Shown: positions 13,830 to 34,564 of the stretch, piece by piece
Layout of the letters: each line of letters starts with the position of its first letter
Numbering within the stretch: the stretch's first letter is position 1
DNA from: Paracoccaceae bacterium
GTDB taxonomy: Bacteria > Pseudomonadota > Alphaproteobacteria > Rhodobacterales > Rhodobacteraceae
Assembly: GCA_002709405.1 (NCBI GenBank)
Contig: PAQV01000029.1
Span: forward strand, 1 to 55,010
DNA length: 55,010 nt
Direction: 5' to 3'
Translations under genes and position numbers: made by a program
The notes under the pieces: generated by a model
What the model was told of the DNA's origin: nothing
Databases searched by the model: none
What the model saw: the letters and a program-made list of their open reading frames with translations, nothing else

Positions 13830-15002
13830 TCATGGCTCGGCTGCCGGCACGGGACCGGGTGGGTAGATCGCCACGCCGGTCATCGTATGGTTGACGTGCA
13901 ACCCGTCGATCTGTTCGCCGTAACTGGAAAAGCCCACCACACGGAAATCACCCAGGATTTCGGACACCTTGCCGGTCAGCTGGTGATCCTCGGCCTCGAT
14001 CCGGCGCAGGATGCAATCGAAGGCGAGGATCGCGTCGGGGCGAACCGGACCGGTCAGGTGGGCCAGGTTGTCCCGCAGATGATCGGCGATGTCCGTGGGC
14101 TCTCCAAGCGACAGGACCAGCCCTTCATCGATGGCCGAGCCCATCGACAGCGAGCTGCCGTTCACCCTTTCCTGAATGCCCCGCACGTAGTGCTTGTCTC
14201 CGAACCGGACGACCAGGGGGTGGGCGGCGAAGGTCGACAGGCTCACGTCCTGCGGATCGAGCCCCAGCAGGCGGGCGTATTCATCGATCGCGGGGGCTGC
14301 GTTGATTTCGTGAACGATCCGCTTGGCCGGCTCGGCCCGGGTCACCACCAGGCGCCGTTCGGTCGGCGAGAAATGATCCAGCGAAAACACCCGCACCGGA
14401 CAGGCCGAACGCAACAGGGCCACCACGGCCCCCCCGGTCGACACTCGTCCCTGGTGGGCGATATGGGTCGTCCGGAAGGCCCGGCCATCTCCGGCAGACC
14501 CCCCGAAGAACGGCATGCCCGCCAGGCCCGGCGCCAACTGGCGCAGCAAGGCCTCTTCGCCCATCGAGGCCCCGTCGATCAGAGCATAGGCGAATTCCGA
14601 CAGCCAGTGCTGATGGTCGGCCGCCAGCGCGTTTCGCTTGGCCACGATGTCGTTGATCAGGGCCTGGGTGTCGATGTTGCCAAGATCCGCGACCTCGACG
14701 AATTCCACCGCGAAATACTCTGCCGGGAAGCCCACGGCGACCGTTGCGCCTTCGCGATATCCTTTCGGAGTGATCTCTCCGGCCGTGGTGCAGGCCGAGA
14801 GCGGCGCATCGCAAACGGCCGTTGCCGCGGCGATCAGATCGTCGAATTCGGGGCCGGGCGAGGAAAACAGCAGAACGTGGGCAAAGGGCCCCTTGCCCAG
14901 GGCCGCGATCAGGGGGCCGGCGGCATTTGCCCCGGTTTCGTCCAACGCGGCGGTCCGCACGATACGTGACGAGCCGCGGACAAGATCACACTCCTCCACC
15001 AT
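13830..15002 (-). CDS. FIST-domain sensory protein, NosP-like
   Basis: A 390-residue protein with FIST_N (about residues 30-220) and FIST_C (about 230-370) domains. Matching stretches are LLFSSPGPEFDDLIAAA, SACTTAGEITPKGY, LAGMPFFGGSAGDG and GGAVVALL in the N-domain, and VVGFSSYGEQIDGLHVNHTM near the end, where the SYGE-I--LH-N-T pattern is typical of FIST_C. FIST proteins bind small ligands; the best studied, NosP of Pseudomonas, binds heme and nitric oxide and inhibits its partner hybrid kinase NahK. Here the gene follows pqqE by 40 bases and a NahK-like kinase lies just upstream of pqqA, so a NosP-type role is inferred. No strong ribosome-binding site precedes the ATG at 15002. Confidence 0.8.
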   Translation of the reverse strand: MVEECDLVRGSSRIVRTAALDETGANAAGPLIAALGKGPFAHVLLFSSPGPEFDDLIAAATAVCDAPLSACTTAGEITPKGYREGATVAVGFPAEYFAVEFVEVADLGNIDTQALINDIVAKRNALAADHQHWLSEFAYALIDGASMGEEALLRQLAPGLAGMPFFGGSAGDGRAFRTTHIAHQGRVSTGGAVVALLRSACPVRVFSLDHFSPTERRLVVTRAEPAKRIVHEINAAPAIDEYARLLGLDPQDVSLSTFAAHPLVVRFGDKHYVRGIQERVNGSSLSMGSAIDEGLVLSLGEPTDIADHLRDNLAHLTGPVRPDAILAFDCILRRIEAEDHQLTGKVSEILGDFRVVGFSSYGEQIDGLHVNHTMTGVAIYPPGPVPAAEP

Positions 15003-15042
15003 GCGGGCAACACTGGACTTTTTTCCGCCGAGGTCAAGGTGC

Positions 15043-16143
15043 TCAGAGCCTGCGATAGATGAACTCCGGTTGAGGCCCGTCCACCACGTCGATGTCCAGG
15101 GCCGCGTCGACCAGGGCCCGGTGGGGCGATTTCCGGCAGACCGGGTCGGTTGCGGCGGGATCTCCGGCGATGGCCATGGCCTGGCAGCGGCAGCCGCCGA
15201 AATCGATATCCCGCCGGTCGCAGGTCTTGCACAGGTCCGGCATCCAGTCGGTGCCCCGGAACGCGTTGAAGGCCGGGCTGTCGTACCAGATGTCGCGCAG
15301 GCTGGCCTCGGCGATGGTTTGGAAGGTCAGGCTGGGGATGGTCTCTGCCGCGTGACAGGGCAGCACCTTGCCGTCGGGCGCGATGTTGAGCCCCGTCGAC
15401 CCCCAACCGCCGCCCATGCAGGCCTTGGGGTAATCGGCATAGTAATCGGGCGGCACGAAGTCGATGGCCAGCCGCCCTTTCAACGCCTTGCGCGCCTCTG
15501 CCACGATCCGCTTGGCCTCATTCACCTGGTCGCGCGAGGGCTGCAACATGGCCCGGTTCTTCAGGGCCCAGCCCTGGAACTGGACGCAGGCGATCTCGAT
15601 CCGCCGGGCGCCCAGGCGCAGGGCCATGTCCAGGGTGGCCGGCAGGTCATCAAGGTTGTGCCGGTGCATCACCGCGTTCAGCGTCAGCGGAAAGCCCATC
15701 TGCCCGATCAGCTCGGCCACATGCATCTTGCGGTCAAACCCGCCGTCGTAGCCCCCGATCCGGTCGGCAACCGCCGCGGTTATGCCCTGCAAGGACAGCT
15801 GGATATGGTCGACGAAAGGCTCCAGCGCCTGCAGGCGCTTTTCCGTCAGCCCGATGCCCGAGGTGATCAGGTTGACATAAAGCCCCGCCTCGCGCGCGCC
15901 CCGGGCCAGGTCGACGATGTCGCGGCGCGACACCGGTTCGCCACCCGACAGGTGGATCTGCAGCACGCCCATCTCGGCCGCCTCGCGGAAGGCCCGCAGC
16001 CAGGTATCGGTGTCGAGCTCGGCGCCCTTCTGCGTCATCTCCAGCGGGTTCGAACAATAGGGACAGGCCAGCGGACAGCGGTGGGTCAGCTCGGCCAGCA
16101 TCGCGATGGGCGGCTGGATCAGGGTGTGGGAGGTGTCAGGCAT
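15043..16143 (-). CDS. pqqE: PQQ biosynthesis radical SAM protein PqqE
   Basis: A 366-residue radical SAM enzyme that forms the Glu-Tyr carbon-carbon crosslink in PqqA. The CxxxCxxC cluster-binding motif is in HRCPLACPYCSNP (Cys 23, 27, 30), followed by QIHLSGGEPVSRRDI (GGEP motif). The SPASM-type C-terminal cysteines are present: KACMGGGWGSTGLNI, VLPCHAAE, CKTCDRRDIDFGGCRCQA and PVCRKSP. The ATG at 16143 overlaps the 3' end of pqqD by eight bases; a TTG two codons upstream is a less likely start. Last gene of pqqABCDE; the FIST gene follows after 40 bases. Confidence 0.97.
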   Translation of the reverse strand: MPDTSHTLIQPPIAMLAELTHRCPLACPYCSNPLEMTQKGAELDTDTWLRAFREAAEMGVLQIHLSGGEPVSRRDIVDLARGAREAGLYVNLITSGIGLTEKRLQALEPFVDHIQLSLQGITAAVADRIGGYDGGFDRKMHVAELIGQMGFPLTLNAVMHRHNLDDLPATLDMALRLGARRIEIACVQFQGWALKNRAMLQPSRDQVNEAKRIVAEARKALKGRLAIDFVPPDYYADYPKACMGGGWGSTGLNIAPDGKVLPCHAAETIPSLTFQTIAEASLRDIWYDSPAFNAFRGTDWMPDLCKTCDRRDIDFGGCRCQAMAIAGDPAATDPVCRKSPHRALVDAALDIDVVDGPQPEFIYRRL

Positions 16144-16408
16144 AGGCAATCAGCATCTGGTCGGCGAGACCATCCAGAAAGGCCACGACGTCCGGTTCGA
16201 TGACGTCGCGCGGGGCGTTGTATGCCGCAGAGAGATGGCCGGCGATGTCGCCAAGGCTGCGCGTGCCATCGACTGCGGCCAGGATGGCCACCGCCGTGTC
16301 ATCCAGCATCAAGGCCCGTTCGGGCCCCAGCAGCACCTCGCGGCCGCGCACGGCATCGTGGTGCCGACGCACGCCGCGCGGGATCACGGGGATCCGGTCG
16401 GTGGTCAC
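16136..16408 (-). CDS. pqqD: PQQ biosynthesis peptide chaperone PqqD
   Basis: A 90-residue RiPP precursor-recognition protein (PqqD fold) that binds PqqA and delivers it to PqqE. It begins VTTDRIPVIPRGVRRHHDAV, includes REVLLGPERALMLDDTAVAIL (strand and helix typical of PqqD, with the L-P-R---L-D--A--IL pattern) and ends FLDGLADQMLIAYA. The start is GTG at 16406-16408, overlapping the pqqC stop by four bases (GTGA); the open frame runs further upstream through pqqC but has no support as coding. It overlaps pqqE by eight bases. PqqD is separate here, not fused to PqqC or PqqE. Confidence 0.93.
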   Translation of the reverse strand: MTTDRIPVIPRGVRRHHDAVRGREVLLGPERALMLDDTAVAILAAVDGTRSLGDIAGHLSAAYNAPRDVIEPDVVAFLDGLADQMLIAYA

Positions 16409-17145
16409 AACAGCCCCTCGTGCGGCAGCCAGCCACCGGGCGGGATGCGGCCCGGCTCGACGTAGCCGGACCAAAGCGCATCCAGCTGCGCCCACAGCAC
16501 ATCCGTCTTGAAGGTCAGGGCCTCGGCCGCCATGTCCTGCTTTTCGGCCGTGTCGGCATGGTCGATGACCCATTGCAGGCCGAAAGCCACGTCCTTGGGC
16601 GCTTCGGTCAGGCGGTGCTGGAAATAGGCGATCGTGTCGGGATTGGCGAAATCGTAATGTTCCAGCAGCCCGGCGATACGCTGTTCATGGATCTTCGGCG
16701 CAAACAATTCCGTCAGCGAAGACGCCACCGCCTGCAACAGCGGCATGTCCCGCACGTAGCGCACGTAGGCATCCACGGCGAACCTGGTCGCCGGCATGAT
16801 CCCCCGTTCAGAGGCCACGTAGTCCGGGTCCAGCCCCACGCCCTCGGCCAGCTTCAGCCAGCGCTCGATCCCGCCCATGCGCCCCTCGGCCCCGTCGTGA
16901 TCCTCGATCCGGGATCGCCAGGCCCGGCGCAGCTTGTGGTCCGTCACCCGGCTCATGAAGGCCGCGTCCTTCATCGGGATGCGGCTCTGGTAATAGTAAC
17001 GGTTGATCACCCAGGCCCGGACCTGGTCCATCGAGCACTGGCCCGAATGCAGCTTGTGGTGGAACGGATGCTTGTCGTGGTAGCGCTCGGCACCGATCTG
17101 GCGCAGGCGGGCCTCGAACGCGGCGCTGTCGGGGATGTCCTTCAT
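16405..17145 (-). CDS. pqqC: Pyrroloquinoline-quinone synthase PqqC
   Basis: A 246-residue cofactorless oxidase of the heme-oxygenase-like fold that carries out the final ring closure and eight-electron oxidation giving PQQ. Recognisable segments are YHDKHPFHHKLHSGQ, VRAWVINRYYYQSRIPMKDAAF, AWRSRIEDHDG and SSLTELFAPKIHEQRI, all conserved in PqqC. The ATG at 17143-17145 overlaps the pqqB stop (ATGA); the longer frame to 17283 would run through pqqB. The length matches the family (about 250 residues). Confidence 0.97.
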   Translation of the reverse strand: MKDIPDSAAFEARLRQIGAERYHDKHPFHHKLHSGQCSMDQVRAWVINRYYYQSRIPMKDAAFMSRVTDHKLRRAWRSRIEDHDGAEGRMGGIERWLKLAEGVGLDPDYVASERGIMPATRFAVDAYVRYVRDMPLLQAVASSLTELFAPKIHEQRIAGLLEHYDFANPDTIAYFQHRLTEAPKDVAFGLQWVIDHADTAEKQDMAAEALTFKTDVLWAQLDALWSGYVEPGRIPPGGWLPHEGLL

Positions 17146-18041
17146 AGCGTGAACCTCATGCCATCCTGAGCGACCGTCCAGCCGGCCGCCTGGGCCTCGG
17201 CCCGTTCGGGGCCGTCCGGCTGCAGGATCGGGTTGGTGTTGTTGATGTGGATAAAGACCTTGCGGGCCTGCAGGCCCGTCCACCGCGCGATGCTGCCCTG
17301 GGGCCCGGCCATCGACACATGCCCCATGCGGGCACCGGTCTTCTGCCCCGTACCGGTGCGGGCCATCTCGTCGTTTTCCCAGACGGTGCCGTCGAAGAGC
17401 AGCATGTCGGCATCATCGAGGCGGGTGATCAGCCAGTCGGGCACGTCGGCACAGCCGGGAATGTAATACAGTACCTGTCCGCCGCCGGAAATCCGCAGGC
17501 CGATGGTCTGCTCTCCCATGGCCTTCAGCGCCTCGCTGTCGGAGGCAATGCCCTCGGCCTCCAGGAACAACGGGATCTTGCCCGGCACCGCAAAAGGCAG
17601 GATCGTCAGCCCCGCGGCATCGAACGGTTGGTCAAGCCTGATGGCGTCCAGGGACACCAGGCTTCGGTCAAGCACACCAAAGACGGAATCCCGCTCCAGG
17701 ATGCCGGCAGTCTCGGCCGTTGCGACAACGCGAAAGGACGTCTTTTCCCGAAGGGTCAGAAGGCCGGCGATATGGTCGATATCACCGTTGGTCAGCACAA
17801 CCGTGTCGATGGGTGTGCCACGAAGCGATCGGGGATGGAAATCCGGTTGGCGGGCGAGCTGTTCGCGGATGTCGGGCGATGCGTTCAGGACGACCCATGC
17901 GGTGCCATCCAAAGAAACACCCACCGACGACTGGGTCATCGGTGGGATCTTGCCAGTCCGTGCGTCCGAACAATTGGGACATCCGCAATTCCACTGCGGC
18001 AATCCCCCGCCTGCCCCGGCACCAAGTACCGTGACATGCAT
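17142..18041 (-). CDS. pqqB: PQQ biosynthesis protein PqqB
   Basis: A 299-residue metallo-beta-lactamase-fold protein implicated in hydroxylating the PqqA-derived tyrosine. It opens MHVTVLGAGAGGGLPQWNCGCPNC, the typical PqqB N-terminus with the CxC-xxC Zn site. The usual hydrolase HxHxDH motif is replaced by LTNGDIDHIAGLLTLRE, as in all PqqB. C-terminal HINNTNPILQPDGPERAEAQAAG is also diagnostic. It starts nine bases after the pqqA stop and overlaps pqqC by four. Confidence 0.97.
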   Translation of the reverse strand: MHVTVLGAGAGGGLPQWNCGCPNCSDARTGKIPPMTQSSVGVSLDGTAWVVLNASPDIREQLARQPDFHPRSLRGTPIDTVVLTNGDIDHIAGLLTLREKTSFRVVATAETAGILERDSVFGVLDRSLVSLDAIRLDQPFDAAGLTILPFAVPGKIPLFLEAEGIASDSEALKAMGEQTIGLRISGGGQVLYYIPGCADVPDWLITRLDDADMLLFDGTVWENDEMARTGTGQKTGARMGHVSMAGPQGSIARWTGLQARKVFIHINNTNPILQPDGPERAEAQAAGWTVAQDGMRFTL

Positions 18042-18049
18042 CGTTCAGA

Positions 18050-18145
18050 TCAGAACAGGTCGTGGTCCTCGTCTTCCGACGGGCCGTACATGTTGATTTC
18101 CATTCCGCAGGCGATCGAGGTCGCGTTGGGCTTGGTCCATGCCAT
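18050..18145 (-). CDS. pqqA: PQQ precursor peptide PqqA (31 residues)
   Basis: A 31-residue ribosomal precursor whose Glu and Tyr side chains are crosslinked to build PQQ. It begins MAWTKPNATSIACGMEINMY; Glu16 and Tyr20 form the obligatory E-x3-Y core (EINMY), and the tail is acidic (SEDEDHD). The N-terminal MxWxKP and CGMEI are strongly conserved in PqqA. A strong ribosome-binding site (GAGGAGGA) lies eight bases upstream of the ATG. It heads pqqABCDE, with a 9-base gap to pqqB, and is easily missed by gene callers because of its size. Confidence 0.96.
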   Translation of the reverse strand: MAWTKPNATSIACGMEINMYGPSEDEDHDLF

Positions 18146-18324
18146 GGTTCTATCCTCCTCAGGAACGTTGGCTTCATGAATGCGCTGATGCGCTACACGT
18201 GGAGATTAGGCCAGAGAAGGCGCGCCGTCATGTGCCGTGCTCGCGGTTCTCAGAAGTTGAGAATTCCCTATGAGGACCCAAGACCTTGGTCCCAGACGGC
18301 AGTTAGGAAGGTCAGCATCCGCCG

Positions 18325-18382
18325 GGGTATTTGGAAAGAGAAAGAAGCCGCAACTTCTGCTTCTTTCTCTTCCCAAATACCC
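18325..18382. repeat. Dispersed palindromic repeat, copy 2 (compact hairpin)
   Basis: Arms GGGTATTTGGAAAGAGAAAG..., 18325-18348, and its inverted copy, 18359-18382, pair at 23 of 24 positions around a 10-base loop, making a very stable hairpin. The core is shared with both arms of the element at 13553-13715. It lies between the end of the hybrid kinase gene and the start of pqqA (both minus strand), so it may terminate the kinase transcript. The remainder of 18146-18416 shows no other feature. Confidence 0.8.
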
Positions 18383-18416
18383 AAATCCCGCCAGTGGGTT
18401 AGGCGCTGACGTTAGG

Positions 18417-20642
18417 TCAACCCGCCTCCCTCAGACGCTTGGCGGCGCTGACCTCGTTGAGAAAATCCAGCAGCTTCGTGCGGTCGATTGGCTTGTTGAG
18501 AATTTCCAGCCCGTTGTCCGTGCAATAGCGGTGCAGGTTGCGCGAGCGGTCAGCTGTCACGATTCGGCAGGCGCAGGGGCCGTGGTTGCGCGCGATGCGG
18601 TGGTAGACGTCCAATCCCGTGGGGCCCTCGCCCAGGTGGTAGTCGAGCAAGAGCGCATCGGGCTGGATGCCGGCCTCGTTCATCAGGTTGATGGCATCCT
18701 CGGCGGATTCCGCCGGCACGACCAGCCCACCCCAGCCCTCGATGTGCATCGACAGGGCCCGGCGCAGCTGGCGGTCGTTTTCCACCAGCAGGACGATGAC
18801 CCCCTCGCAATTCGGCTCGGCCAGTTCGGGGGTTTCGGCGATCAGGTTGCGCTCGGCGTTCCAGTAGGCATCCAGGATCGGCACGGAAAATGAAAAGCAG
18901 CTGCCGACCCCCGGCGCGGACCTCACGTTCAGCGGGTGGTCGAGCGAGGCGCAGGCCCGGTCCACGATGGCCAGGCCAAGACCCAGCCCCTGCGCCGGGC
19001 CGGACCCGGGGTCGAGCTTGCGGAATTCCTCGAATATGACGCGCTTTTCGTCCTCGGTCATGCCGCGGCCCGTGTCCCAGACCTCGATCCGGGCCGAGTT
19101 GCCGCGCCGGCGCACGCCGACGACAACGCGGCCGGCGTCGGTATAGCGGACCGCGTTGGAGATCAGGTTCTCCAGGATCCGCCGCAGGTAGCCCGGATCG
19201 CTTTCCACCAGCAGCGACGAGGGCACCACCGACAGACCCAGCCCCTTGGCCGCCGCCTGCGGCGCGAATTGATCGCGCAGGATGCCGAAGACGTTTTCCA
19301 GGGGGATCGGTCGCCGGTCCATGACCACCTTGTCGGCATCCAGCTTGGAGATATCCATCAGCGCTTCGATGATATGTTCCAGGTGCGCCAGCGAGGTTTC
19401 GGCCTTGCCGATGACCTTCAGGATGGTCTCGTCGTCGGAACTGTCGGCGATCGACGACATGAACAGCTTGGCCGAGCTGAGCGGCTGCATCAGGTCATGG
19501 CTGGCCGCGGCGACAAAGCGGGACTTGGAGGCGGTGGCCCGTTCGGCATCGCGCAGGGCTTCGCCCAGGGCGCGGGTGCGGTCCTCGACCCGGCGTTCCA
19601 GCTGTTCGTTCAGGTCGCGCAGCGCGTTGTTGGCCAGGCGCTCGGCGGTGACATCGGTAAAGCTCATCACCACACCCCAGGACGGGATGTAGCGGGCGAA
19701 GATCTTCAGGAAGGTATGGCCGCCCTGCTTGACCTCGAAGGCAATGGGGGCCTGGCGGTCGGCATTGCGCATCCATTGGCCCAGATCGAGCGCGCTGAAC
19801 CCGATGGGAAAGGTCATCGTCCGACCCAGGTGGTCGATCATCACCGAGGTCGACAGCCGCGTGCCGGACAATTGCGGTGGCAGGTGCAGCAGCTCGATCA
19901 GGCGGCGGTTCTGGCCGATGGCATCCCCGTCGTCGCCGAAGATGCAGACCCCCTGGTCGAGGTGATCCAGCGTGGCCTGCAGCAGCATCGCCTGCCGGTC
20001 CATCAGCGCGTCGCGTTCCTGCCGTTCGACCCGGATCAGGTCGGTCACGTCGGAATGCATGATGACCGTCCCGCCCGAGGCGGTGCGCTGCGACGAGGTC
20101 TGGAAATAGCGCTCGCCCATCAGGGTGACGTTGAAATTGGCCGCCTGGCTGTCGTGCAGGGCCAGCCGCCAGTTCATCCAGTCAGACGGCGACCGGCGGT
20201 GACCCAGATCGAGGAACTCGGACTTGCTGACCAGTTCAAGGTAGCGCCGGAAGGCCAGGCCCGGGCGAATATGCGGCACCACGTCCTTGAGGTTCGCGCT
20301 GAAGCGCGAATTGGCCAGGATCAGCCGGTCGTCGGGGCCGAAGAGCGCAAAGCCCTCGGAAATCGCCTCGATCGCCTCGGACAGGTGCGCCCGGGCGGTG
20401 CGGGCGGCCACGTTGGCCACGCCCAGCTGTTCCTTGCTGGCGCTCAGCTGGTCCAGGGTGCGTTCCAGCGCCCGGGTCTGCTGCAGCATCTGCGATTCGA
20501 GATAGGCTGCCCGTTCGAACTGGGCATAGGCCAGCTCGGACGGGGCACTTGCCTGTTCAACGCGCCGGATCAGGCTTTCCACGATGCGCGACAGCTTCTG
20601 GTTCTGCCGCTCGACCGTGTCCTTCGGGTCGACGAATTCCAT
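18417..20642 (-). CDS. PAS-domain hybrid sensor histidine kinase/response regulator, NahK/ErcS'-like
   Basis: A 741-residue soluble kinase. Order: N-terminal coiled coil (about 1-90), PAS domain with EGFALFGPDDRLILANSRF (about 95-205), a second PAS with QGVCIFGDDGDAIGQNRRL and a MSFTDVTAERLANNAL tail (about 225-335), coiled coil, HisKA with VAAASHDLMQPLSSAKLF (phospho-His 382), HATPase with NLISNAVRY, DTGRGM and GLGLGLAIV, and a receiver domain with DALLLDYHLG (Asp 667). No membrane segments are visible. SHDLMQPLSSA is typical of the Pseudomonas NahK/ErcS' group, which regulates PQQ-linked ethanol oxidation and is inhibited by NosP. The LuxR regulator is just upstream and pqqA downstream. GAGGAGG precedes the ATG at 20642 but is partly inside a hairpin. 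Confidence 0.88.
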   Translation of the reverse strand: MEFVDPKDTVERQNQKLSRIVESLIRRVEQASAPSELAYAQFERAAYLESQMLQQTRALERTLDQLSASKEQLGVANVAARTARAHLSEAIEAISEGFALFGPDDRLILANSRFSANLKDVVPHIRPGLAFRRYLELVSKSEFLDLGHRRSPSDWMNWRLALHDSQAANFNVTLMGERYFQTSSQRTASGGTVIMHSDVTDLIRVERQERDALMDRQAMLLQATLDHLDQGVCIFGDDGDAIGQNRRLIELLHLPPQLSGTRLSTSVMIDHLGRTMTFPIGFSALDLGQWMRNADRQAPIAFEVKQGGHTFLKIFARYIPSWGVVMSFTDVTAERLANNALRDLNEQLERRVEDRTRALGEALRDAERATASKSRFVAAASHDLMQPLSSAKLFMSSIADSSDDETILKVIGKAETSLAHLEHIIEALMDISKLDADKVVMDRRPIPLENVFGILRDQFAPQAAAKGLGLSVVPSSLLVESDPGYLRRILENLISNAVRYTDAGRVVVGVRRRGNSARIEVWDTGRGMTEDEKRVIFEEFRKLDPGSGPAQGLGLGLAIVDRACASLDHPLNVRSAPGVGSCFSFSVPILDAYWNAERNLIAETPELAEPNCEGVIVLLVENDRQLRRALSMHIEGWGGLVVPAESAEDAINLMNEAGIQPDALLLDYHLGEGPTGLDVYHRIARNHGPCACRIVTADRSRNLHRYCTDNGLEILNKPIDRTKLLDFLNEVSAAKRLREAG

Positions 20643-20649
20643 TTTTCCT

Positions 20650-20692
20650 CCTCGGGCGGGACCGGTCTTGTGCCGGTTCTCACCCCCCGAGG
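20650..20692 (-). promoter_or_regulatory. GC-rich hairpin covering the kinase ribosome-binding site
   Basis: Outer arms CCTCGGG (20650-20656) and CCCGAGG (20686-20692) and inner arms ACCGG (20661-20665) and CCGGT (20673-20677) form a nested stem in the 63 bases between the LuxR stop and the kinase ATG. In the minus-strand RNA, the 3' side of the stem overlaps the AGGAGG ribosome-binding site of the kinase. It could attenuate transcription after the regulator gene or limit kinase translation. Read directly as inverted repeats; the role is inferred. Confidence 0.5.
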
Positions 20693-20705
20693 GCTACAAT
20701 AGACT

Positions 20706-21374
20706 TTAGTCGCTCTCAGGCAAGACGTTGGAAAACTTGGCCTGTTGAGCGACCAGCACGGCCTGGGTACGGCTTTGCACGCCCAGCTTGCGCATGATCG
20801 CCGTGACATGGGCCTTGACCGTGGTTTCGGCGATCGACAGTTCGTAGGCGATCTGCTTGTTCAGCTTGCCCTCGCAGATCAGATCCAGGATGCAGGTCTG
20901 CTGGCGGGTCAGCGAGGCCAGCCGTTCCACCGTGTCCAGCTTGTCATCCATGTCGGGCGTTTCGACGTAGCCGGGGGGCTTGTAGATCTCGTTCGCGCCC
21001 ACCACCTGCAAGGCTTCCTTGAAGATCGCGCGCCGGCTGTGCTTGGGCACGAACCCCGAGGCCCCGGCATGCAACGCGGCCGAGATCATGGCGTTTTCGC
21101 ACATCGACGACACCACGATGATCGGGCTGGGATTGACCGCGGCCTTCAGCTTGACCAGCCCGTCCAGGCCACTGACATCGGGCAGGTTCAGGTCCAGGAC
21201 CACAAGCGAGGGCTTGGACCGGGACGAGATGGTTTCCATCGCCGCGGCGAGGCAATCGGCGGTGGCGATGTTCTGCAATGAAGAGACGGCGCGCAATGTC
21301 AGTTCCAGAGCATCGCAGAACAAGGGGTGGTCATCGATAATGAGCGCCCAATCCGACGGTTTCTCCTGGCTCAT
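20706..21374 (-). CDS. LuxR/NarL-family response regulator
   Basis: A 222-residue response regulator: receiver domain with WALIIDDHPLFCDALELTL (acidic pocket) and phospho-acceptor Asp 61 in LVVLDLNLPD, then a C-terminal LuxR-type HTH, LTRQQTCILDLICEGKLNKQIAYELSI...TTVKAHVTAIMRKLGV. I take the ATG at 21374 (MSQEKPSDWALI); GGAGGAA lies 13 bases upstream, rather far. An upstream frame to 21446 adds 24 residues without support. Placed directly before the hybrid kinase, it is its likely partner, comparable to the ErbR/AgmR-type regulators of PQQ-dependent alcohol oxidation. Targets plausibly include pqqA, by inference. Confidence 0.85.
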   Translation of the reverse strand: MSQEKPSDWALIIDDHPLFCDALELTLRAVSSLQNIATADCLAAAMETISSRSKPSLVVLDLNLPDVSGLDGLVKLKAAVNPSPIIVVSSMCENAMISAALHAGASGFVPKHSRRAIFKEALQVVGANEIYKPPGYVETPDMDDKLDTVERLASLTRQQTCILDLICEGKLNKQIAYELSIAETTVKAHVTAIMRKLGVQSRTQAVLVAQQAKFSNVLPESD

Positions 21375-21648: not shown

Positions 21649-23778
21649 TCAGCGGACCCTCATGGCGTTCAAAATGACGGTGACAGAGCTTGCCGACATG
21701 GCCAGCGCGGCCCACAGCGGGGTGGCAAAGCCCAAGACGGCAAAGGGGATGGCGATGGCGTTGTAGCAGGCCGCCAGAGCGAAGTTCTCCAGGATGCGCT
21801 TGCGGGCGGCCCGGGCCGTGGCCACCGCATCGCCGATGCCTGCCAGGCGGCCGGTGACCAGCACGATGTCGGCGACGTTGCGGCTGGCCTCCAGCGCCGT
21901 GCCCGGCGCGATCGAGGCATGGGCGGCGGCCAGCGCGGCCGTGTCGTTCAACCCGTCTCCGACCATCAGCACCTTGTGGCCCTCGGCTTGCAGGGCGGCG
22001 ACATGGGCCTGCTTGTCCTCGGGTGTCATGCCGGCCAGCACCGTGTCGCAGCCCAGGGCAGAGCCGATGGCCGCGGCCTTGTCGGGGGTGTCCCCGGTCA
22101 GGATCTGCACGGGCAGGTCCAGCGCGGACAGGGTGGCCAGGGTGTCGGCGGCATCGTCCAGCAGGGTTTCCGAGGGCGTCAGGGGCCAGCTTTGATCCCC
22201 CACCCGAAAGACGGTGCCCGTACCTGTCCCCACAGCCCACGCGGCGCGGCCCAGGCGGATGTCATGGCCCTGCCAGGTCGCGCGCATGCCCTGGCCCGTA
22301 TCCTCGACGATGTCCTGCAGCCGGGCCGGAGCGATGTCCGACAGGTTGGCCGCAAGCCCGCGTGACAGGGGATGATCCGACGCCGCCGAAATCGCCCGCA
22401 GCACCGGCAGCAGGTCCCGGGGCAGATCCTTCGGCGGGGTCAGGCCCGAGCGGGTCAGGGTGCCGGTCTTGTCGAAGACGACCATGTCGACCCCGGCCAG
22501 CCGTTCCAGGGCAGTATCGGATTTCACCAGCAGCCCCTTGCGGAACAGCCGGCCCGTCGCCGCCGTGGCCACGGCAGGCACGGCCAGGCCAAGCGCGCAA
22601 GGACAGGTGATGATCAGCGTGGCGATGGCCACGTTCAGGGCAAAGCGGATGTCTCCGCTCAGCACCGCCCAGCCCGCGAAGGCCAGGAAGGACACCAGGT
22701 GCACCGCCGGCGCGTAGATGCGCGCGGCCCGGTCGGCCAGGCTGGTGTAGCGGGTGCGGGCGTTCTCGGCGACCTCTACCAGCCGGGTCATGCGGCGCAG
22801 GGTGGTGTCTTCGCCCACGGCCGTTGCAATGACCTCGATCGGGCCGGTCAGGGTGACCTCTCCGGCCGACAGGCGTGCGCCCTGCCCGCGCGGTACGGCC
22901 AGGCTTTCGCCGGTGATGGCCGAGCGGTCGATCTCGGCCCCGCTTGAGGCCAGTTCGGCATCCACCGGCAACCGCGCGCCTGCCGCCAGCCACAGCCGGT
23001 CGCCCACGGCAATGTCGCTGACCGGGCGGCTGACGTGGGCGTCGCCCTCGACGCGGATCACGCGCGAGGGTTCCAGCGCGGCCAGGTCGCGGGCGGCGGA
23101 CCGGGCCGCCCCGCGCATCCGCTGGTCCAGCACGCGGCCCGCCAGCAGGAAGAAGGTCAGCGACAGGGCCGCGTCGAAATAGGCATGGGCCCCGCCCTGG
23201 GTGACCTCGAACAGCGACATGCCGCAGGCCAGCAGGATCGCCAGCGAGATCGGCACGTCCATGTTCAACCGCCCGGCCCTCAGCGCGCCCCAGGCGTTGG
23301 AAAAGAACGGCTGGGCGGCGAACAGGGCGGCGGGAATGGCAATCGCCGCGCTGATCCAGTGGAACATGTCGCGGGTGGCGTCCGAGGCCCCGGACCAGAC
23401 GGCCACCGACAACAGCATCACGTTCATCATCGCGAAACCGGCCACGCCCAGGCGCACGATCAGCATGCGCGCACGGGCGTCGGGAACGGCCACGTCACGG
23501 GCCTCGTGGGCTTCGAAACCGGCGGCGGCCAGGGCCTCGATCCAGGGGGTCGGATCAGCCCCCGGTTCGGCCGTGATCGAGGCCCGTTTCAGCGTCAGGT
23601 TCACCCGGGCCCCGTCGATGCCCGGCTGGTCGGCCAGGACGCTTTCGACCGAGCGGATACAGCCTGCGCAATGGATCTGCGGCAGGACAAGATGGTGGGT
23701 CGGCTGGCCGGCGCCCTGCCCTGCCCGTTCGGCCGCCGGAACCGCCGCGACGCAGGCCGGACAGGCGGCCACGCTCAT
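21649..23778 (-). CDS. ccoI: Copper-transporting P1B-type ATPase CcoI/FixI
   Basis: A 709-residue heavy-metal P-type ATPase that supplies Cu for the CuB centre of cbb3 oxidase. It has a short Cys-rich start (MSVAACPACVAAVPAAE), an HMA domain with PQIHCAGCIRSVESVLAD, the transmembrane CPC motif in IITCPCALGLAVPAVATA, the phosphorylation site VFDKTGTLTRSG, and hinge VGDGLNDTAALAAAHASIA. The start ATG at 23778 overlaps the ccoH stop (ATGA); a longer frame to 23853 would overlap ccoH. The ACPAC N-terminus and position between ccoH and ccoS distinguish it from a general CopA. Confidence 0.95.
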   Translation of the reverse strand: MSVAACPACVAAVPAAERAGQGAGQPTHHLVLPQIHCAGCIRSVESVLADQPGIDGARVNLTLKRASITAEPGADPTPWIEALAAAGFEAHEARDVAVPDARARMLIVRLGVAGFAMMNVMLLSVAVWSGASDATRDMFHWISAAIAIPAALFAAQPFFSNAWGALRAGRLNMDVPISLAILLACGMSLFEVTQGGAHAYFDAALSLTFFLLAGRVLDQRMRGAARSAARDLAALEPSRVIRVEGDAHVSRPVSDIAVGDRLWLAAGARLPVDAELASSGAEIDRSAITGESLAVPRGQGARLSAGEVTLTGPIEVIATAVGEDTTLRRMTRLVEVAENARTRYTSLADRAARIYAPAVHLVSFLAFAGWAVLSGDIRFALNVAIATLIITCPCALGLAVPAVATAATGRLFRKGLLVKSDTALERLAGVDMVVFDKTGTLTRSGLTPPKDLPRDLLPVLRAISAASDHPLSRGLAANLSDIAPARLQDIVEDTGQGMRATWQGHDIRLGRAAWAVGTGTGTVFRVGDQSWPLTPSETLLDDAADTLATLSALDLPVQILTGDTPDKAAAIGSALGCDTVLAGMTPEDKQAHVAALQAEGHKVLMVGDGLNDTAALAAAHASIAPGTALEASRNVADIVLVTGRLAGIGDAVATARAARKRILENFALAACYNAIAIPFAVLGFATPLWAALAMSASSVTVILNAMRVR

Positions 23779-24233
23779 GGGCGGTGCTCCATCTCGAAGC
23801 GGCGGCGGAACATGGTGCCGTCCTCGGCCTGGGCTTCCAGCCGCAGGTCCCACTTGCCCCGATCCAGCCCCGGCACATGGGCGACATAGGCCGCGCCGTC
23901 CCAGGCAAAAACCGGCTCGCGGTCCTCGCTGGCCACGGTGGCCCGGCCCAGCACGGCCCGTGTGATCACCGGCTGCACCGGCCCGGCGTCGCTGTCGAAG
24001 CGCAGCACCAGGAAATCGCCGTCGAAATCCGAACTGACCTGCCAGCCCAGGGCTTCCTGCGCGGCGCGGTCGGCCTCGAAACTTTGGCTGGCCACGTAGG
24101 AGTTCTTGGTCTCCAGCCCCGGGAAGGTCTTCACCGCGTTGACCGCCAGCGCGATGTTCACCCCGATGATCACGGTGAAGGCCCCGCCGAAGATCATCGC
24201 CACGTGGCGGCCGGTAAGGGTAAAATCGCTCAT
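23775..24233 (-). CDS. ccoH: cbb3 oxidase assembly protein CcoH/FixH
   Basis: A 152-residue protein with one N-terminal membrane helix (GRHVAMIFGGAFTVIIGVNIALA), the signature NSYVASQSFEADRAAQEALGW and a periplasmic immunoglobulin-like domain ending RRRFEMEHRP. FixH proteins assist assembly of cbb3 oxidase together with CcoI. The ATG overlaps the ccoG stop and the stop overlaps the ccoI start, both by ATGA-type coupling. Confidence 0.93.
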   Translation of the reverse strand: MSDFTLTGRHVAMIFGGAFTVIIGVNIALAVNAVKTFPGLETKNSYVASQSFEADRAAQEALGWQVSSDFDGDFLVLRFDSDAGPVQPVITRAVLGRATVASEDREPVFAWDGAAYVAHVPGLDRGKWDLRLEAQAEDGTMFRRRFEMEHRP

Positions 24234-25657
24234 TCGTCTCCCCGTCCGTTGAAGATCGTGTCGTGGTGGACCCGCTCGCCCGAGGCCAGGTCCTCGATCC
24301 AGAAGCGGATGTCGGTGCGGTCGGCCTCCGACGGATCCGCGTTGCGCGGCGCGATCACGTAGACCCTCTGGGTCATGGTTTCGTTGGCCGGCACCATGAC
24401 ACTCTCATAAACCGTGCCCTCAAGCGAGACCCTGAGCGAGGGATCGCCCTCGACATGGATGCGGAAGGGCCGTTCGTCGCCGTTCTTGTTGCGCAGGCGC
24501 ATGTCATAGGAATTGCGGATCGAGCCGTCGGACATGGTGACATAGATCGGGTTGCGGATCGGCGTGACGTTGACGTCGATGTCCGAGCGCACGAAGAGCG
24601 CCCAGACCAGGCCCACGCCCACCAGCGACCACAGCGCCGTGTAGATGATGGTCCGGGTGCGGAAGATGTGCTGCCAGATCGGGCGGGGCTTTTCGCCGGC
24701 CTCTTCGCGGGGCTGGTCGGAGAGGGCGAGGTAATCGATCAACCCGCGCTCCTTGCCCACCTTGGCCATGATGTCGTCGCAGGCGTCGATGCAGAGGGCG
24801 CAGGTGATGCACTCCATCTGCTGGCCGTCGCGGATGTCGATGCCCATCGGGCAGACGTTGACGCAGGCCATGCAGTCGATGCAATCGCCCAGCTGTTCGG
24901 ACCCTTCGGCCTTGCGGTGCTTGCCGCGCGGCTCTCCGCGCCAGTCGCGGTAGGCCACGGTCAGCGTGTCGGGGTCCATCATCGCGGCCTGAACCCGCGG
25001 CCAGGGGCACATGTAGATGCAGACCTGTTCGCGCATGAAGCCGCCGAAGACGAAGGTGGTGAAGGTCAGGATCAGGATGGTCGAATAGGCCACGGGCGGC
25101 GCGCTGAAGGTCGCGAGCTGCCCGGCCAGTGTCGGCGCATCGGCAAAGTAGAAGACCCAGGCCCCGCCCGTTGCCAGGGCGATCAGGAACCAGACGGCGA
25201 ACTTGAAGATGCGCAGGCGGACCTTCTTGGCCGTCCAGCCGGATTTCCACAGGCGGACACGGGCATTGCGGTCACCCTCGATCCAGCGTTCGACCAGGAT
25301 GAACAGGTCCGTCCAGACGGTCTGCGGACAGGTATAGCCGCACCAGACCCGGCCCAAGGCCGAGGTGAACAGGAAGAGCCCAAGGCCCGCCATGATCAGC
25401 AGGCCGGCGACAAAGTAGAATTCGTGGGGCCAGATCTCGATCCAGAAGAAATAGAAACGGCGGCCGGCGAGGTCGATCAGCACCGCCTGGTCGGGCAGGT
25501 TCGGCCCGCGATCCCAGCGGATCCAGGGCGTCAGGTAATAGATGCCCAGGGTGATCGCCATGATCCACCATTTGAGGTTGCGGAAAGGGCCCGAGACGCG
25601 CCGGGGAAAGATCGGCTCGCGGGCGGCATAAAGGCTTTCGGGTTCACTGCTACTCAT
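24230..25657 (-). CDS. ccoG: cbb3 oxidase accessory polyferredoxin CcoG
   Basis: A 475-residue membrane protein with N-terminal YAAREPIFPRRVSGPFRNLKWW (the CcoG/RdxA signature), about five membrane helices, GRVWCGYTCPQTVWTDLF, and two ferredoxin-type clusters, CIDCMACVNVCPMG and CITCALCIDACDDI, then a periplasmic Ig-like C-terminal domain. It functions in Cu(II) reduction for cbb3 assembly. I chose the ATG at 25657 (MSSSEPES): the FNR box centred at 25724.5 predicts a transcript start near 25683, which would leave almost no leader for the alternative ATG at 25681. First gene of ccoGHIS. Confidence 0.95.
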   Translation of the reverse strand: MSSSEPESLYAAREPIFPRRVSGPFRNLKWWIMAITLGIYYLTPWIRWDRGPNLPDQAVLIDLAGRRFYFFWIEIWPHEFYFVAGLLIMAGLGLFLFTSALGRVWCGYTCPQTVWTDLFILVERWIEGDRNARVRLWKSGWTAKKVRLRIFKFAVWFLIALATGGAWVFYFADAPTLAGQLATFSAPPVAYSTILILTFTTFVFGGFMREQVCIYMCPWPRVQAAMMDPDTLTVAYRDWRGEPRGKHRKAEGSEQLGDCIDCMACVNVCPMGIDIRDGQQMECITCALCIDACDDIMAKVGKERGLIDYLALSDQPREEAGEKPRPIWQHIFRTRTIIYTALWSLVGVGLVWALFVRSDIDVNVTPIRNPIYVTMSDGSIRNSYDMRLRNKNGDERPFRIHVEGDPSLRVSLEGTVYESVMVPANETMTQRVYVIAPRNADPSEADRTDIRFWIEDLASGERVHHDTIFNGRGDE

Positions 25658-25717
25658 GGGACTGGTGGCCTTTTGGTTCATGCTGCCAGGAGTTATCGGG
25701 CACCGCTCATCCAGGCT

Positions 25718-25731
25718 TTGACATAGGTCAA
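25718..25731. promoter_or_regulatory. FNR/FnrL box upstream of ccoGHIS
   Basis: TTGACATAGGTCAA is a perfect TTGAC-N4-GTCAA palindrome. A class II FNR-activated promoter (box centred at -41.5) would start transcription near 25683, 26 bases before the chosen ccoG ATG. The presumed activator, FnrL, is encoded at 29811-30551. Confidence 0.88.
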
Positions 25732-25904
25732 TCCGAATATGTTCGAGCGGAGTCGGCACCTGTCATTCTATGCGACGGGGCCAATATCGGAAGGTGCTGC
25801 GACCATGTGACATGCGCCGGAGCGCGTCGGTCACGGTGCTGTGATCACAGGTCCATGATCGTCGGGCAAGCGATCCTGATGTGGGGCCTGACCGGGACAT
25901 GAAA

Positions 25905-25931
25905 CTGGCGCCAGAGGGACTCTGGCGCCAG
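25905..25931 (-). terminator. Strong hairpin after ccoP, probable terminator
   Basis: CTGGCGCCAGAG - GGA - CTCTGGCGCCAG is a perfect 12-base-pair stem with a 3-base loop, 49 bases past the ccoP stop. In the minus-strand RNA it is followed by TTTC, a weak U tract. It separates ccoNOQP from ccoGHIS. The rest of the 322-base stretch 25658-25979 holds the FNR box and no gene. Confidence 0.75.
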
Positions 25932-25979
25932 CAAGGGATGTGATCCGCGGCCCGGCGGGCCTGGCGATGGACAGGCAGG

Positions 25980-26861
25980 TTACTCTGCCGGAGCGTCCTC
26001 GCCCCCACCCAGGCCATGGACGTACAGCGCCACGGCCTTGATCTCGGCTTCGCTCAGGCGCGGGGCCCAGGGGGGCATCACGCCATAGCGCGAGTAGGTC
26101 ACGGTCTCGGTGATCGTTTCGCGGTCGCCGCCATACAGCCAGATCGCGTCGGTCAGGTTCGGCGCGCCCTGCTCGCGGTCGCCCGTGCCTGCGTCGCCGT
26201 GGCACGAGGCACAATTGTCGGCAAAGACCACCGCGCCCTCTTCGGCCATGGCCGCGTCATGCTCGGCCCCGGAAATGGCCAGCACATGTTCGACCACGCT
26301 GGCGATCTCTGCGTCCTCCAGCATGTCGCCAAAGACCGGCATCTCGGAATAGCGGGCGTCGAAATCGGCCTCGTTACGGATGCCGTGACGCACGGTGTAC
26401 TCGATCGCGGCCAGGTCCCCGCCCCACAGCCAGTCATCGTCCAGCAGGTTCGGGTAGCCCACGGCCCCGGCCGCACCGGCCCCGTGGCACTGCGAGCAAT
26501 TGGCCCGGAAGACCGCCGCACCGCCGGCCATGCCATAGTGGAAGGCCGCGCTGGAGGGATCGAGCGTGGTCAGATCGGCCGCGGCAAGCTCGGCGGCCAC
26601 CTCGGCGTTCTGGGCCTCGACCCGTTCGATTTCGGCCGCGACCTCGCCCCGTGTGGAATAGCCCAGCAGACCGCCCGTCGCCCGGTTGACCAGCGGCCAG
26701 GCCGGATAGGCGATGGTGTAGAGCAGCGCGTAGACGATGCAGGCGTAGAACAGCCACAGCCACCAGCGCGGCAACGGGTTGTTCAGTTCCTGGATGCCGT
26801 CCCATTCATGGCCGGTCGTGTCGACGCCCGTTGCCGGATCTTTTGTCACGTTGTCAGCCAT
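25980..26861 (-). CDS. ccoP: cbb3 cytochrome c oxidase subunit III CcoP
   Basis: A 293-residue membrane-anchored diheme cytochrome c. The N-terminus MADNVTKDP...[22 protein letters not shown] is the CcoP signature and the following helix anchors it. Two class I heme sites are visible, CSQCHGAG (about residue 130) and CASCHGDA (about residue 220), with axial Met candidates [11 protein letters not shown] and [11 protein letters not shown]. It passes electrons from soluble cytochrome c to CcoO. The ATG at 26861 overlaps the ccoQ stop by one base; a GTG one codon upstream is an alternative. Confidence 0.97.
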
Positions 26862-27085
26862 CACGCTGTCTCCGTTTTCTTGATGTCTGGCTGGATGCCG
26901 TGCGGGGCGGCACTGCTGCCACGGTGCCCCGGTTTGTCATCGCGCAGGACGATATTGGCGGTGTCGCGGTACTGCTTGGAGGCACCGGGCCGGAAGACCC
27001 AGACCACCACGCCGACGAAGAAAAGCGTCATCGCCAGCAGCATCCAGCTGTCCGCGAAGGCGCGGAAGGCGGAATAGGTGTCCAT
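26861..27085 (-). CDS. ccoQ: cbb3 cytochrome c oxidase subunit IV CcoQ
   Basis: A 74-residue single-helix protein, [20 protein letters not shown] followed by [14 protein letters not shown] and a polar tail. This matches the CcoQ/FixQ pattern (short N-terminus, one span, FRPG). It stabilises the oxidase. It lies between ccoO (11 bases upstream) and ccoP (one-base overlap). The polar tail is longer than in minimal CcoQ proteins. Confidence 0.92.
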
Positions 27086-27096
27086 CGTCGCCCCCC

Positions 27097-27864
27097 TTAC
27101 CGGCTTGCATCGGCGGTGAAGGTCGAGAAATCGACCATCGTGCCGAGCACCTGCAGATAGGCGATAAGCGCATCCATTTCCGTCACGCCCCGCTGGTCGT
27201 CGAAGTTCGATACCACCGCGCCCGGGTACCGTTCCAGCATTGCGTCGTAGTCGCTGTCCGGATCGGCCTGGGCCTGAAGGTCGGCCATGCCGTTTTCGAT
27301 CATCTCGTCGGTGTAGGGCACACCGACCATGCGATGCGTCGACATCAGGTCCTCGATATGGGCGTAGTCGAGGTTGGTGTGCAGAAGGAATTCATACTTC
27401 GGCATCACGCTTTCGGGCACCACGGACTGCGGGTCGACCAGGTGATCCACGTGCCAGGCGTCCGAGTACCGGCCGCCCACGCGGGCCAGGTCGGGCCCGG
27501 TCCGCTTGGACCCCCATTGGAACGGATGGTCGTACATCGACTCGGCCGCCAGCGAGTAATGCCCGTAGCGCTCGACCTCGTCGCGCATCGGCCGGATCAT
27601 CTGGCTATGGCAGACATAGCAGCCTTCGCGCACGTAGATGTCCCGCCCCTTCAGTTCCAGGGGCGAGTAAGGCCGCACCCCTTCCACTTCCTCGATCGTA
27701 TTCTCGAGCCAGAAGAGCGGCGCGATCTCGACGATGCCACCGACGGTGACGACGAGGAAGGAGAAGATGAACAGAAGCGTGGGGCTACGTTCAAGGATGG
27801 CGTGCTTGTTGAGGATGCCCTTCTTCGGGGCCTCGGTTGCTTGCGTGTTTTCGGTATCAGCCAT
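27097..27864 (-). CDS. ccoO: cbb3 cytochrome c oxidase subunit II CcoO
   Basis: A 255-residue membrane-anchored monoheme cytochrome c. It has [20 protein letters not shown] with the anchoring helix, [32 protein letters not shown] and heme site [23 protein letters not shown], all diagnostic of CcoO/FixO; the axial Met candidate is [11 protein letters not shown]. The ATG at 27864 follows GAGGACAAGAACA; a slightly longer start would overlap ccoN. Second gene of ccoNOQP. Confidence 0.97.
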
Positions 27865-27875
27865 TGTTCTTGTCC

Positions 27876-29477
<1,602 letters not shown>

Positions 29478-29563
29478 AGCTTTTCCCAATAGCTTGTGCG
29501 CACGGACGGCTTCCCGTGCACGAGTTCGCCACGCTGTCATGCAGCGTCCGGCCTCGACCCTCC

Positions 29564-29577
29564 TTGATTTACATCAA
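29564..29577. promoter_or_regulatory. FNR/FnrL box upstream of ccoNOQP
   Basis: TTGATTTACATCAA is a perfect TTGAT-N4-ATCAA palindrome centred at 29570.5. Class II activation would give a transcript start near 29529, a 52-base leader before ccoN. The rest of the 29478-29810 interval up to fnrL shows only a short GGCCG/CGGCC hairpin near 29783 and nothing else I recognise. Confidence 0.92.
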
Positions 29578-29810
29578 GTCGTTCCTATGCAGCCTATCAG
29601 CGTCGCCTCTGTCCGACACTTTTTTCGTTAACCAACCGCCGGCCCGCGCCAAGCGGTCGCAGGCAAACGGCGCCACGCGTCGCGGGCGCCGAAGACGGCA
29701 TCAATCGGTCAGGGAAAATTTCGGAGCAGGGGCCGGGATCGTGTCGCTAGCTGTGCGACGGCCCGCCCGACCGGGCGCGCCAGATGGCCGCAGCGGCCCC
29801 AGGGGTGATC

Positions 29811-30551
29811 TCAGAAGATCATGCCACCGTCGTCATCGTCTCCGGTTTCGGCCAGCAAAGCGCCAAAATCGGGAATGAGGATCGTCCGCTTGCCTTCCAG
29901 CTGGATGATCCCGTCCTTGCGCAGGCGGGTCAGCTGGCGGCTAACGGTTTCGATGGTCAGGCCCAGGTAATTGGCCATGGTCTCGCGCGTGATCGGCAGT
30001 TCGACCCGGCCCTTGTCGCCCAGCACCCCGCCATCGGGCCGGATCGAGCGTTTCACGATCAGGGCCAACAGGCTGGCGATCCGTTCCCGCGCGGTCTTAC
30101 GGCCCAAGAGCAGCATCCAGTCGCGCGCCGCGTCCAGTTCGTCCAGCGCCATCTCCAGCAGCCGCTCGCGGACATGGGGCATTTCGTCCAGCAGGTCCTC
30201 GAAGGGTTTGCGGTGGAAGCAGCAGACCGTCAGGTCGGTGACGGCCGTCACGTCGTATTGCGCCTCGGACCGGCCCGGGCGGCCAACGAAATCCGACGGC
30301 AGCAACAGGCCCACAAGCTGGGTGCGCCCGTCCTCGATCGAGCGGGTCAGCGTCGCCGTGCCGCTCACGATAGAGGCCACGGTCTCCAGCGGTTCGCCCC
30401 GGATCGCAATGATCTGGCCCGCGGAATAGGTCTTGTAGAACTTGATCCGGCTCAGCGCGTCCAGCTCGTCGGGTTCACAACGCGCGCAGACCGCGCGGTG
30501 CCGAATGGGACAATCCGAACAATCGTGAAGTACAGCAGAAGCCAGGGCCAT
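29811..30551 (-). CDS. fnrL: Crp/Fnr-family oxygen-responsive regulator FnrL
   Basis: A 246-residue FNR-type activator. The N-terminus MALASAVLHDCSDCPIRHRAVCARC supplies three or four cysteines for an oxygen-labile 4Fe-4S cluster (with Cys in VCCFHRK further on). A cyclic-nucleotide-like beta roll (SAGQIIAIRGEPLETVASIVSG) and dimer helix follow. The C-terminal HTH LTIETVSRQLTRLRKDGII has the E--SR residues that read TTGA half sites. It resembles Rhodobacter FnrL, and the ccoNOQP-fnrL-hemN arrangement is the same. An FNR box lies 18 bases upstream of its ATG, close enough to suggest autorepression. Confidence 0.95.
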   Translation of the reverse strand: MALASAVLHDCSDCPIRHRAVCARCEPDELDALSRIKFYKTYSAGQIIAIRGEPLETVASIVSGTATLTRSIEDGRTQLVGLLLPSDFVGRPGRSEAQYDVTAVTDLTVCCFHRKPFEDLLDEMPHVRERLLEMALDELDAARDWMLLLGRKTARERIASLLALIVKRSIRPDGGVLGDKGRVELPITRETMANYLGLTIETVSRQLTRLRKDGIIQLEGKRTILIPDFGALLAETGDDDDGGMIF

Positions 30552-30568
30552 GAAGCGATTTGTCCGGG

Positions 30569-33762: not shown

Positions 33763-33834
33763 TGATGCACTCCTCCCTGTGCGGTCTGTCTTGGTCTTCC
33801 CCTCTGTGCGTCTCTTGCCGGTCAATACGACCTG

Positions 33835-34560: not shown

Positions 34561-34564
34561 CAAG

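Follow-up and report, generated by a model that had tools for sequence, protein, structure and literature searches.

A probable genus-specific rearrangement of an alphaproteobacterial regulator-FIST-kinase trio around pqqABCDE in a Paracoccaceae bacterium

The FlhRS system of Paracoccus denitrificans and the AfdRS system of Rhodobacter sphaeroides are reported to govern methanol and formaldehyde genes, and in both of them, as in RfdRS of R. sphaeroides, a third open reading frame (ORF; orf2, afdT and rfdT) lies between the gene of the response regulator (RR) and that of the histidine kinase (HK) (PMC4776306, PMC8879981). A FIST protein and a PAS hybrid kinase are likewise described in or near an ethanol/pyrroloquinoline quinone (PQQ) cluster for NosP-NahK of Pseudomonas aeruginosa (PA1975-PA1976) and PP_2663-PedS1 of P. 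putida (PMC12997753). NosP is reported to control the autophosphorylation of its kinase (PMC12570481), and the regulator ErdR of P. aeruginosa is needed for full pqqA, exaA and exaB transcripts, which were lower in an erdR mutant (PMC8546858). The gene order, the label GfdT of a FIST protein and PP_2663 (PMC12997753) suggest that orf2, afdT and rfdT also encode FIST proteins. In this study, a related locus was analysed in a window of 55,010 nucleotides, which is the whole stretch of DNA considered here (contig PAQV01000029.1, assembly GCA_002709405.1, Paracoccaceae bacterium). The RR and HK genes, pqqABCDE and a FIST gene follow one another on its minus strand. The literature searched, which included few subscription papers, contained nothing on this gene order, on the M1 and M2 elements described below, or on FIST in the PQQ regulation of Rhodobacterales.

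The locus is probably a genus-specific rearrangement of an alphaproteobacterial RR-FIST-HK trio of the alcohol/formaldehyde type (the FlhRS/AfdRS/PedS1-NahK kind), which would control PQQ synthesis and methanol oxidation. In transcription order, it comprises an ErdR/FlhR-like RR of the LuxR/NarL type (20706-21374; 222 aa; Pfam Response_reg and GerE); a NahK/ErcS/FlhS-like PAS-PAS hybrid HK with a C-terminal receiver (18417-20642; 741 aa; PAS_7 in two stretches, HisKA, HATPase_c and Response_reg); the five pqq genes; and a GfdT/NosP-like FIST protein (13830-15002; 390 aa; Pfam FIST 135 bits and FIST_C 71.4 bits), whose gene starts 40 bp past pqqE. All genes are intact, and the five Pqq proteins exceed their NCBIfam equivalog cut-offs: pqqA (18050-18145; 31 aa; TIGR02107, 26.2 bits against 20), pqqB (17142-18041; TIGR02108, 372.6 against 245), pqqC (16405-17145; TIGR02111, 383.1 against 240), pqqD (16136-16408; TIGR03859, 69.7 against 46) and pqqE (15043-16143; TIGR02109, 528.1 against 381.35). 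The first-pass annotation had described this one-strand layout and the domains of its proteins, and both were confirmed. The same order was kept in 3/3 sampled genomes of the genus, namely, the source genome (G000), G120 and G121 (loci L044 and L045 in the latter two), with protein identities of 82-93%. A chance origin of the order was rejected because both other genomes carry it, and the synteny is not limited to one strain. The first-pass reading as a whole was partly supported.

Other genera arrange these genes differently. The sample outside the genus consisted of 28 other pqqC loci from a one-per-genus draw (120 genomes) and 20 further stretches, 8 from the same genomes, which were picked for a FIST gene near pqqC. 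The window's order was found in none of the 23 pqq-linked trios with all three members from this sample; FIST lay between RR and HK in every one of them, some kinases being cut by the end of the stretch. Eighty named loci, a kept subset of a longer FIST-profile scan list, gave the same picture: HK directly followed FIST in 80/80 and RR directly preceded it in 76/80, the exceptions being L088, where the stretch is cut short, and L120, L121 and L142, which have no RR there. One of these exceptions, L121 (CP059262.1), is a Rhodobacteraceae-type FIST-HK pair in a record titled as an Exiguobacterium profundum metagenome-assembled genome, and the record name looks wrong. The source genome itself carries one contiguous canonical RR-FIST-HK trio on its contig C85 (L009:10236-14371), with 57/46/48% identity to the window proteins; a second FIST was not found in the other two genus genomes. 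The RR-ORF-HK order of FlhRS and AfdRS is therefore seen in the C85 trio and in most relatives, whereas in the window FIST stands behind pqqE.

Phylogenetic trees were used to place the window proteins, leaving out L012, L013, L018 and L026 as well as fragments under 300, 500 and 200 aa. The genus grouped with L048 in the HK tree (95/90) and, weakly, in the RR tree (92/59). Three loci (L029, L048 and L049) read PedH-type dehydrogenase-RR-FIST-HK-pqqABCDE on one strand. Because the closest kin in the HK tree has this order, the simplest history is that FIST probably moved from the RR-HK gap to behind pqqE in the ancestor of the genus. Decay of FIST after such a move was considered and rejected, as only 3/60 residues conserved in the clade are changed in the genus (RR, 0/55; HK, 12/92).

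The 271-bp gap between HK and pqqA holds a long hairpin, a palindrome and a shorter element. The palindrome, TTCTCA-N5-TGAGAA (M2; 18247-18263, minus strand), stands upstream of pqqA and is a candidate operator of pqqABCDE-FIST. With at most one mismatch, M2 was found at three sites in each of the three genus genomes (5.4, 6.8 and 6.2 Mb), the Markov expectation being 1.35 sites per 5.39 Mb, and 9/9 sites lay at PQQ loci, that is, at pqqA or in the cluster of XoxF, the lanthanide-type methanol dehydrogenase. These nine sites represent three promoters in three related genomes rather than nine independent events. Besides pqqA, the sites occupy the interval that separates xoxF from the methanol-related cytochrome c gene following it, as well as the divergent promoter region before PQQ-associated substrate-binding and beta-propeller genes of the XoxF cluster. 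At two mismatches or fewer, the source genome held 38 sites against 38.2 expected. M2 was rejected as a family-wide operator, since outside the genus a single site with no more than one mismatch was seen, in stretch L038/L055 and 3.6 kb beyond pqqE.

XoxF was identified from the G120 copy, the best PDB match of which is 6oc5 (1120 bits). Genes for methanol-related cytochrome c and for quinoprotein-associated proteins belong to the cluster, which in G120 also has glutathione (GSH)-dependent formaldehyde dehydrogenase, all over cut-off; the XoxF cluster of the genus, so composed, resembles the alphaproteobacterial methanol oxidation described in PMC4543880. The only XoxF-type gene found in the source genome (L010:15772, at the end of G000 contig C48) is cut by the contig end, so that its promoter cannot be read there. 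The palindrome shared by pqqA and the XoxF cluster supports, as far as sequence goes, the link of the module to PQQ, and it lends weight to the first-pass proposal that PQQ synthesis and the quinoprotein dehydrogenases answer to this module.

The shorter element in the gap, GAC-N4-GTC (18277-18291, minus strand), is a weak, M1-like form of a wider motif. The word is common in itself (15 in the window against 18 expected), and it adjoins all nine M2 sites, which suggests one composite operator. GGTCGTA, the long form of which is ATTGNACNWWGGTCGTA, was found in 24/37 dehydrogenase promoters and 12/47 pqqA promoters, with 0.037 expected per 340 bases at the rate of all loci examined. These counts omit 11 overlapping loci, and pqqA was recognised in 56 upstream stretches, of which 47 were counted. 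Because the promoters in which GGTCGTA was discovered also served for counting it, a matrix trained on the 24 dehydrogenase promoters and applied to pqqA promoters provides a more independent test. Mean scores were 10.4 for the window's trio group (22 loci), 1.7 for the sister group (7) and 3.1 for loci with no trio nearby (15), and the Mann-Whitney p values of the first group were 0.027 against the sister group and 0.016 against loci without a trio, with clade labels assigned by hand from the trees and the nearby trio. Three loci had been dropped: L040 and L077, whose top scores came from a site in the intergenic DNA that pqqA and the dehydrogenase share in Sinorhizobium loci, and L021, whose divergent trio about 13 kb off had been wrongly labelled as absent. 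Before this, the means were 11.8, 1.7 and 3.2 (p 0.017 and 0.007). Several loci carry M1 in front of RR as well. The data support the wider motif and, to a lesser degree, its use in the source genus; M2 may have been added in the genus, and the protein that reads it may be the same or a different one.

In the proposed mechanism, which follows the analogy with NosP, FIST would bind a small-molecule ligand connected with the oxidation of alcohols or aldehydes and set the activity of the hybrid kinase, which would in turn set the phosphorylation of the LuxR-type RR. The regulator would then read the palindrome and act upstream of pqqABCDE and within the XoxF cluster. As the presumed last gene of the pqq operon, FIST would be produced in step with the PQQ enzymes and could feed back on the kinase; the feedback would be negative if FIST, like NosP, acts on the kinase as an inhibitor. 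Expression of FIST from the pqq promoter would make the loop self-adjusting during production of the PQQ enzymes.

The company that the trio keeps elsewhere bears on the nature of this signal. The trio is widespread in Alphaproteobacteria, where many copies are associated with PQQ-dependent alcohol oxidation and those of a sister branch with glutathione-dependent formaldehyde oxidation. The trees split the trios into the window's group and this sister group. In 13 pqq-linked genomes of the former, a PedH-type quinoprotein ethanol dehydrogenase gene lies just ahead of RR (best PDB match of the L048 enzyme, 6zcv, 841 bits), and gfa stands in front of RR in 6/8 pqq-linked genomes of the latter. 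The PedH-type gene lay within the stretch in 20/80 named loci. Paracoccus pantotrophus, Paracoccus sp. AK26 and Ruegeria have a PQQ dehydrogenase close to the trio; on S. meliloti pSymA, the genes of GSH-dependent formaldehyde dehydrogenase and fghA are 4-6 kb away from the trio; gfa is in front of it in Mameliella alba; and aldehyde dehydrogenase and DUF779 genes adjoin FIST-HK in Sphingobium. Linkage of the trio to pqq recurs in many genera and in differing orientations. Where metabolic neighbours were found, then, they were the PedH-type alcohol dehydrogenase, gfa and other formaldehyde or aldehyde genes, and these surroundings point to an alcohol or formaldehyde signal more than to nitric oxide (NO).

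One 20-kb locus, L014 (G003:C1:234800-254799), contains a gfa match at its edge, RR-FIST-HK, pqqA-E, GSH-dependent formaldehyde dehydrogenase, an fghA match and xoxF, and this compact one-carbon (C1) locus would make a good experimental model.

Nitric oxide was the signal favoured by the first-pass annotation, in which FIST was a heme-NO sensor of the NosP kind that inhibits the kinase, so that NO tunes PQQ synthesis. The kinship behind this proposal holds. FIST matched the NosP model NF041558 at 334 bits (E 1.1e-99) and has the FIST N and FIST C architecture of NosP, with both Pfam scores over cut-off; HK shows the PAS-HisKA-HATPase-REC order of NahK/ErcS kinases; and HK and RR are related to NahK and ErdR. 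The names themselves were not sustained, since each protein scored under its curated cut-off: FIST against 450 bits, HK with 392.9 against 1500 (NF041831) and 343.7 against 400 (NF041832, near_NosP_CTERM), and RR with 164.3 against 390 (ErdR model NF041830). Filing the three as NosP, NahK and ErdR was accordingly rejected, and they are better described as NosP-, NahK- and ErdR-like. The C85 paralogue and the L048 FIST reached 382-384 bits with the NosP model, and the whole C85 set as well as the FIST and kinase of this close relative in another genus were likewise under the curated cut-offs. The NosP gene adjoins that of its partner kinase, whereas pqqABCDE intervenes in 3/3 genus genomes; unlike the dehydrogenase of the ErdR regulon, the one in question here is XoxF, on another contig.

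Further evidence on NO is divided. The NosP of Burkholderia pseudomallei is reported to control its kinase in an NO-dependent manner (PMC12570481), most of the conserved Cys, His and Tyr residues able to bind heme are retained in the window FIST, and a cbb3 oxidase/FnrL cluster lies next door. On the other side, the His kept at FIST residue 272 in 98/102 relatives is Tyr in the source genus, and no nirK over cut-off was found in the source genome. Across 394 genomes of the family, FIST was present in 75/86 genomes with pqqC against 93/308 without (odds ratio 15.8, p 5e-22), and its association with nirK was absent (19/50 with nirK against 149/344 without; odds ratio 0.80, p 0.54), in a search that did not extend to nirS or nor genes. 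In these counts nirK was scored over cut-off (50 genomes; at E 0.001 there were 204, most of them with weak matches), pqqC and FIST were scored at E 0.001, and the p values serve as a guide only, the genomes being related. Taken together, we regard control of PQQ synthesis by NO as unlikely.

Several observations weigh against the view that the window contains a rearranged trio with control over PQQ synthesis and methanol oxidation. In the FIST tree, the window protein does not fall next to L048 (p-AU, the p value of the approximately unbiased test, 0.055 for L048 alone), so that this FIST could be an acquired copy and not a moved one; grouping with L048, L009 and L050 gave a p-AU of 0.256. 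The kinship with FlhR, FlhS and AfdT rests on gene order and review text. None of seven tested quinoprotein, formaldehyde and aldehyde genes was found in the stretch examined at 60/80 named trio loci, and none of the tested metabolic genes was near the C85 trio. In a rival explanation, for which the 60/80 loci also count, the module would regulate biofilm, motility or cyclic di-GMP through a phosphorelay, in the manner of NahK-HptB, and would merely have inherited its pqq neighbourhood. NahK of P. aeruginosa is reported to phosphorylate HptB, with the signal passing onward to RsmA (PMC12997753), and the receiver domain of the window HK would suit such a relay. The recurrence of pqq linkage in differing orientations, the strong co-occurrence with pqqC, and the presence of M1 upstream of dehydrogenase, pqqA and RR genes all speak against mere inheritance, which leaves this explanation decidedly improbable.

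The remaining points on the unfavourable side concern the operators. M1 matches were weak in the window, G120 and G121 (5.6-8.6 bits, p 0.07-0.10; 5.9 bits, p 0.098 in the window), PQQ genes outside the genus showed no M2 copy with one mismatch or fewer, and upstream of xoxF itself there was just one M2 copy, in G120 and with three mismatches. On account of the first two points, M2 could be the site of another regulator. In that case, M2 would belong to a different genus-specific regulator of PQQ and methanol genes, and RR-HK-FIST would only modulate it or work through the weaker M1-like element. The helix-turn-helix recognition region of RR, which is identical to that of several pqq-linked kin carrying M1, agrees with such a division of labour; GAC-N4-GTC beside M2 at 9/9 sites does not, and we consider a separate M2 regulator quite unlikely.

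What FIST might bind can be approached from its structure. The predicted structure had a pLDDT (predicted local distance difference test score) of 93.1, and its best fold match was the FIST domain of human FBXO22 (8s7e_B, E 2e-5, TM-score 0.46/0.52). Chorismatase chains (E 2e-4) and related folds came next, and three chains reached E 0.001. Between the window FIST and the FBXO22 domain, identity is 11% and the root-mean-square deviation is 6.6, and FBXO22 is part of an E3 ligase. Searches of PDB by sequence gave chance-level matches only and did not reach FBXO22, so that the putative equivalence of C330 and E363 to FBXO22 residues rests on fold match and spacing (E363 comes 33 residues after C330, which resembles the 36 from C326 to E362 of FBXO22). 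The conserved core of FIST includes C71, C330, E363 and H369. C71 and C330 were kept in 102/102 trio-type FISTs that have a residue at these positions (104 aligned). C330 and E363 were invariant in all FISTs aligned, including the distant ones of Treponema, Pantoea and Sulfurovum, which lack C71; the C330/E363 pair is thus a trait of the family.

In two of these distant cases FIST is the head of another protein, namely, a chemoreceptor in Pantoea (L166:2857-4830) and a larger protein in Sulfurovum (L169:1141-3135).

Cys326 of FBXO22 is reported to form a hemithioacetal with aldehydes, for which E362 is needed (PMC13316043, PMC11208438). By analogy, FIST might be a thiol-based aldehyde sensor of the FlhRS/AfdRS/PedS1 kind, in which C330, with E363 and possibly C71, would react reversibly with formaldehyde or acetaldehyde and switch the kinase. 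We hold this proposal to be conceivable yet rather doubtful. The invariance of C330 and E363 even in distant FISTs means that they do not single out aldehyde as the ligand. The text of one review describes AfdRS and RfdRS as seemingly having no conserved cysteines and calls their formaldehyde sensing unknown. According to the same text, adhI expression with formaldehyde stayed the same in an rfdT mutant (PMC4776306), a result that argues against FIST as the sole sensor in the Rhodobacter sphaeroides system. No measured ligand for this FIST clade was found in the literature searched. If the proposal is true, an aldehyde-sensing FIST would explain how AfdRS and RfdRS sense formaldehyde, a sensor under its own output promoter would give the source genus a built-in feedback on PQQ synthesis, and bacterial C1 regulation would be joined to the FBXO22 chemistry used in targeted protein degradation.

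More broadly, the results link FIST, a poorly understood sensory domain, to PQQ and to C1 and alcohol metabolism across many Alphaproteobacteria. They offer a concrete operator and regulon to test, by which what FIST senses and how FlhRS and AfdRS sense formaldehyde become testable. The moved FIST gene would be a natural rewiring, with a sensor subunit placed under the promoter that it probably controls.

RR-HK and pqqABCDE-FIST are likely two transcription units, because the 271-bp gap between them carries the hairpin and the palindrome. The hairpin (18325-18382, minus strand) has a 24-bp stem and may act as a boundary; the fold of 18310-18410 gave -55 kcal/mol (z -7.7). A similar hairpin with partly different stem letters exists in G120 and is missing in G121. 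It was not among the terminator-like sites listed and has no listed T-run, and it is a candidate attenuator, small mobile element or terminator. A sigma-70 promoter scan returned 0 matches. Farther upstream of RR, at 32509-44971, lies a putative sox-like sulfur-oxidation cluster, judged from the look of translated N-termini only. Closer to RR and on the same strand, NCBIfam models identified a copper P-type ATPase, CcoG, CcoN of the cbb3 oxidase and FnrL at 21649-30578, and oxygen control of the region around these genes is likely.

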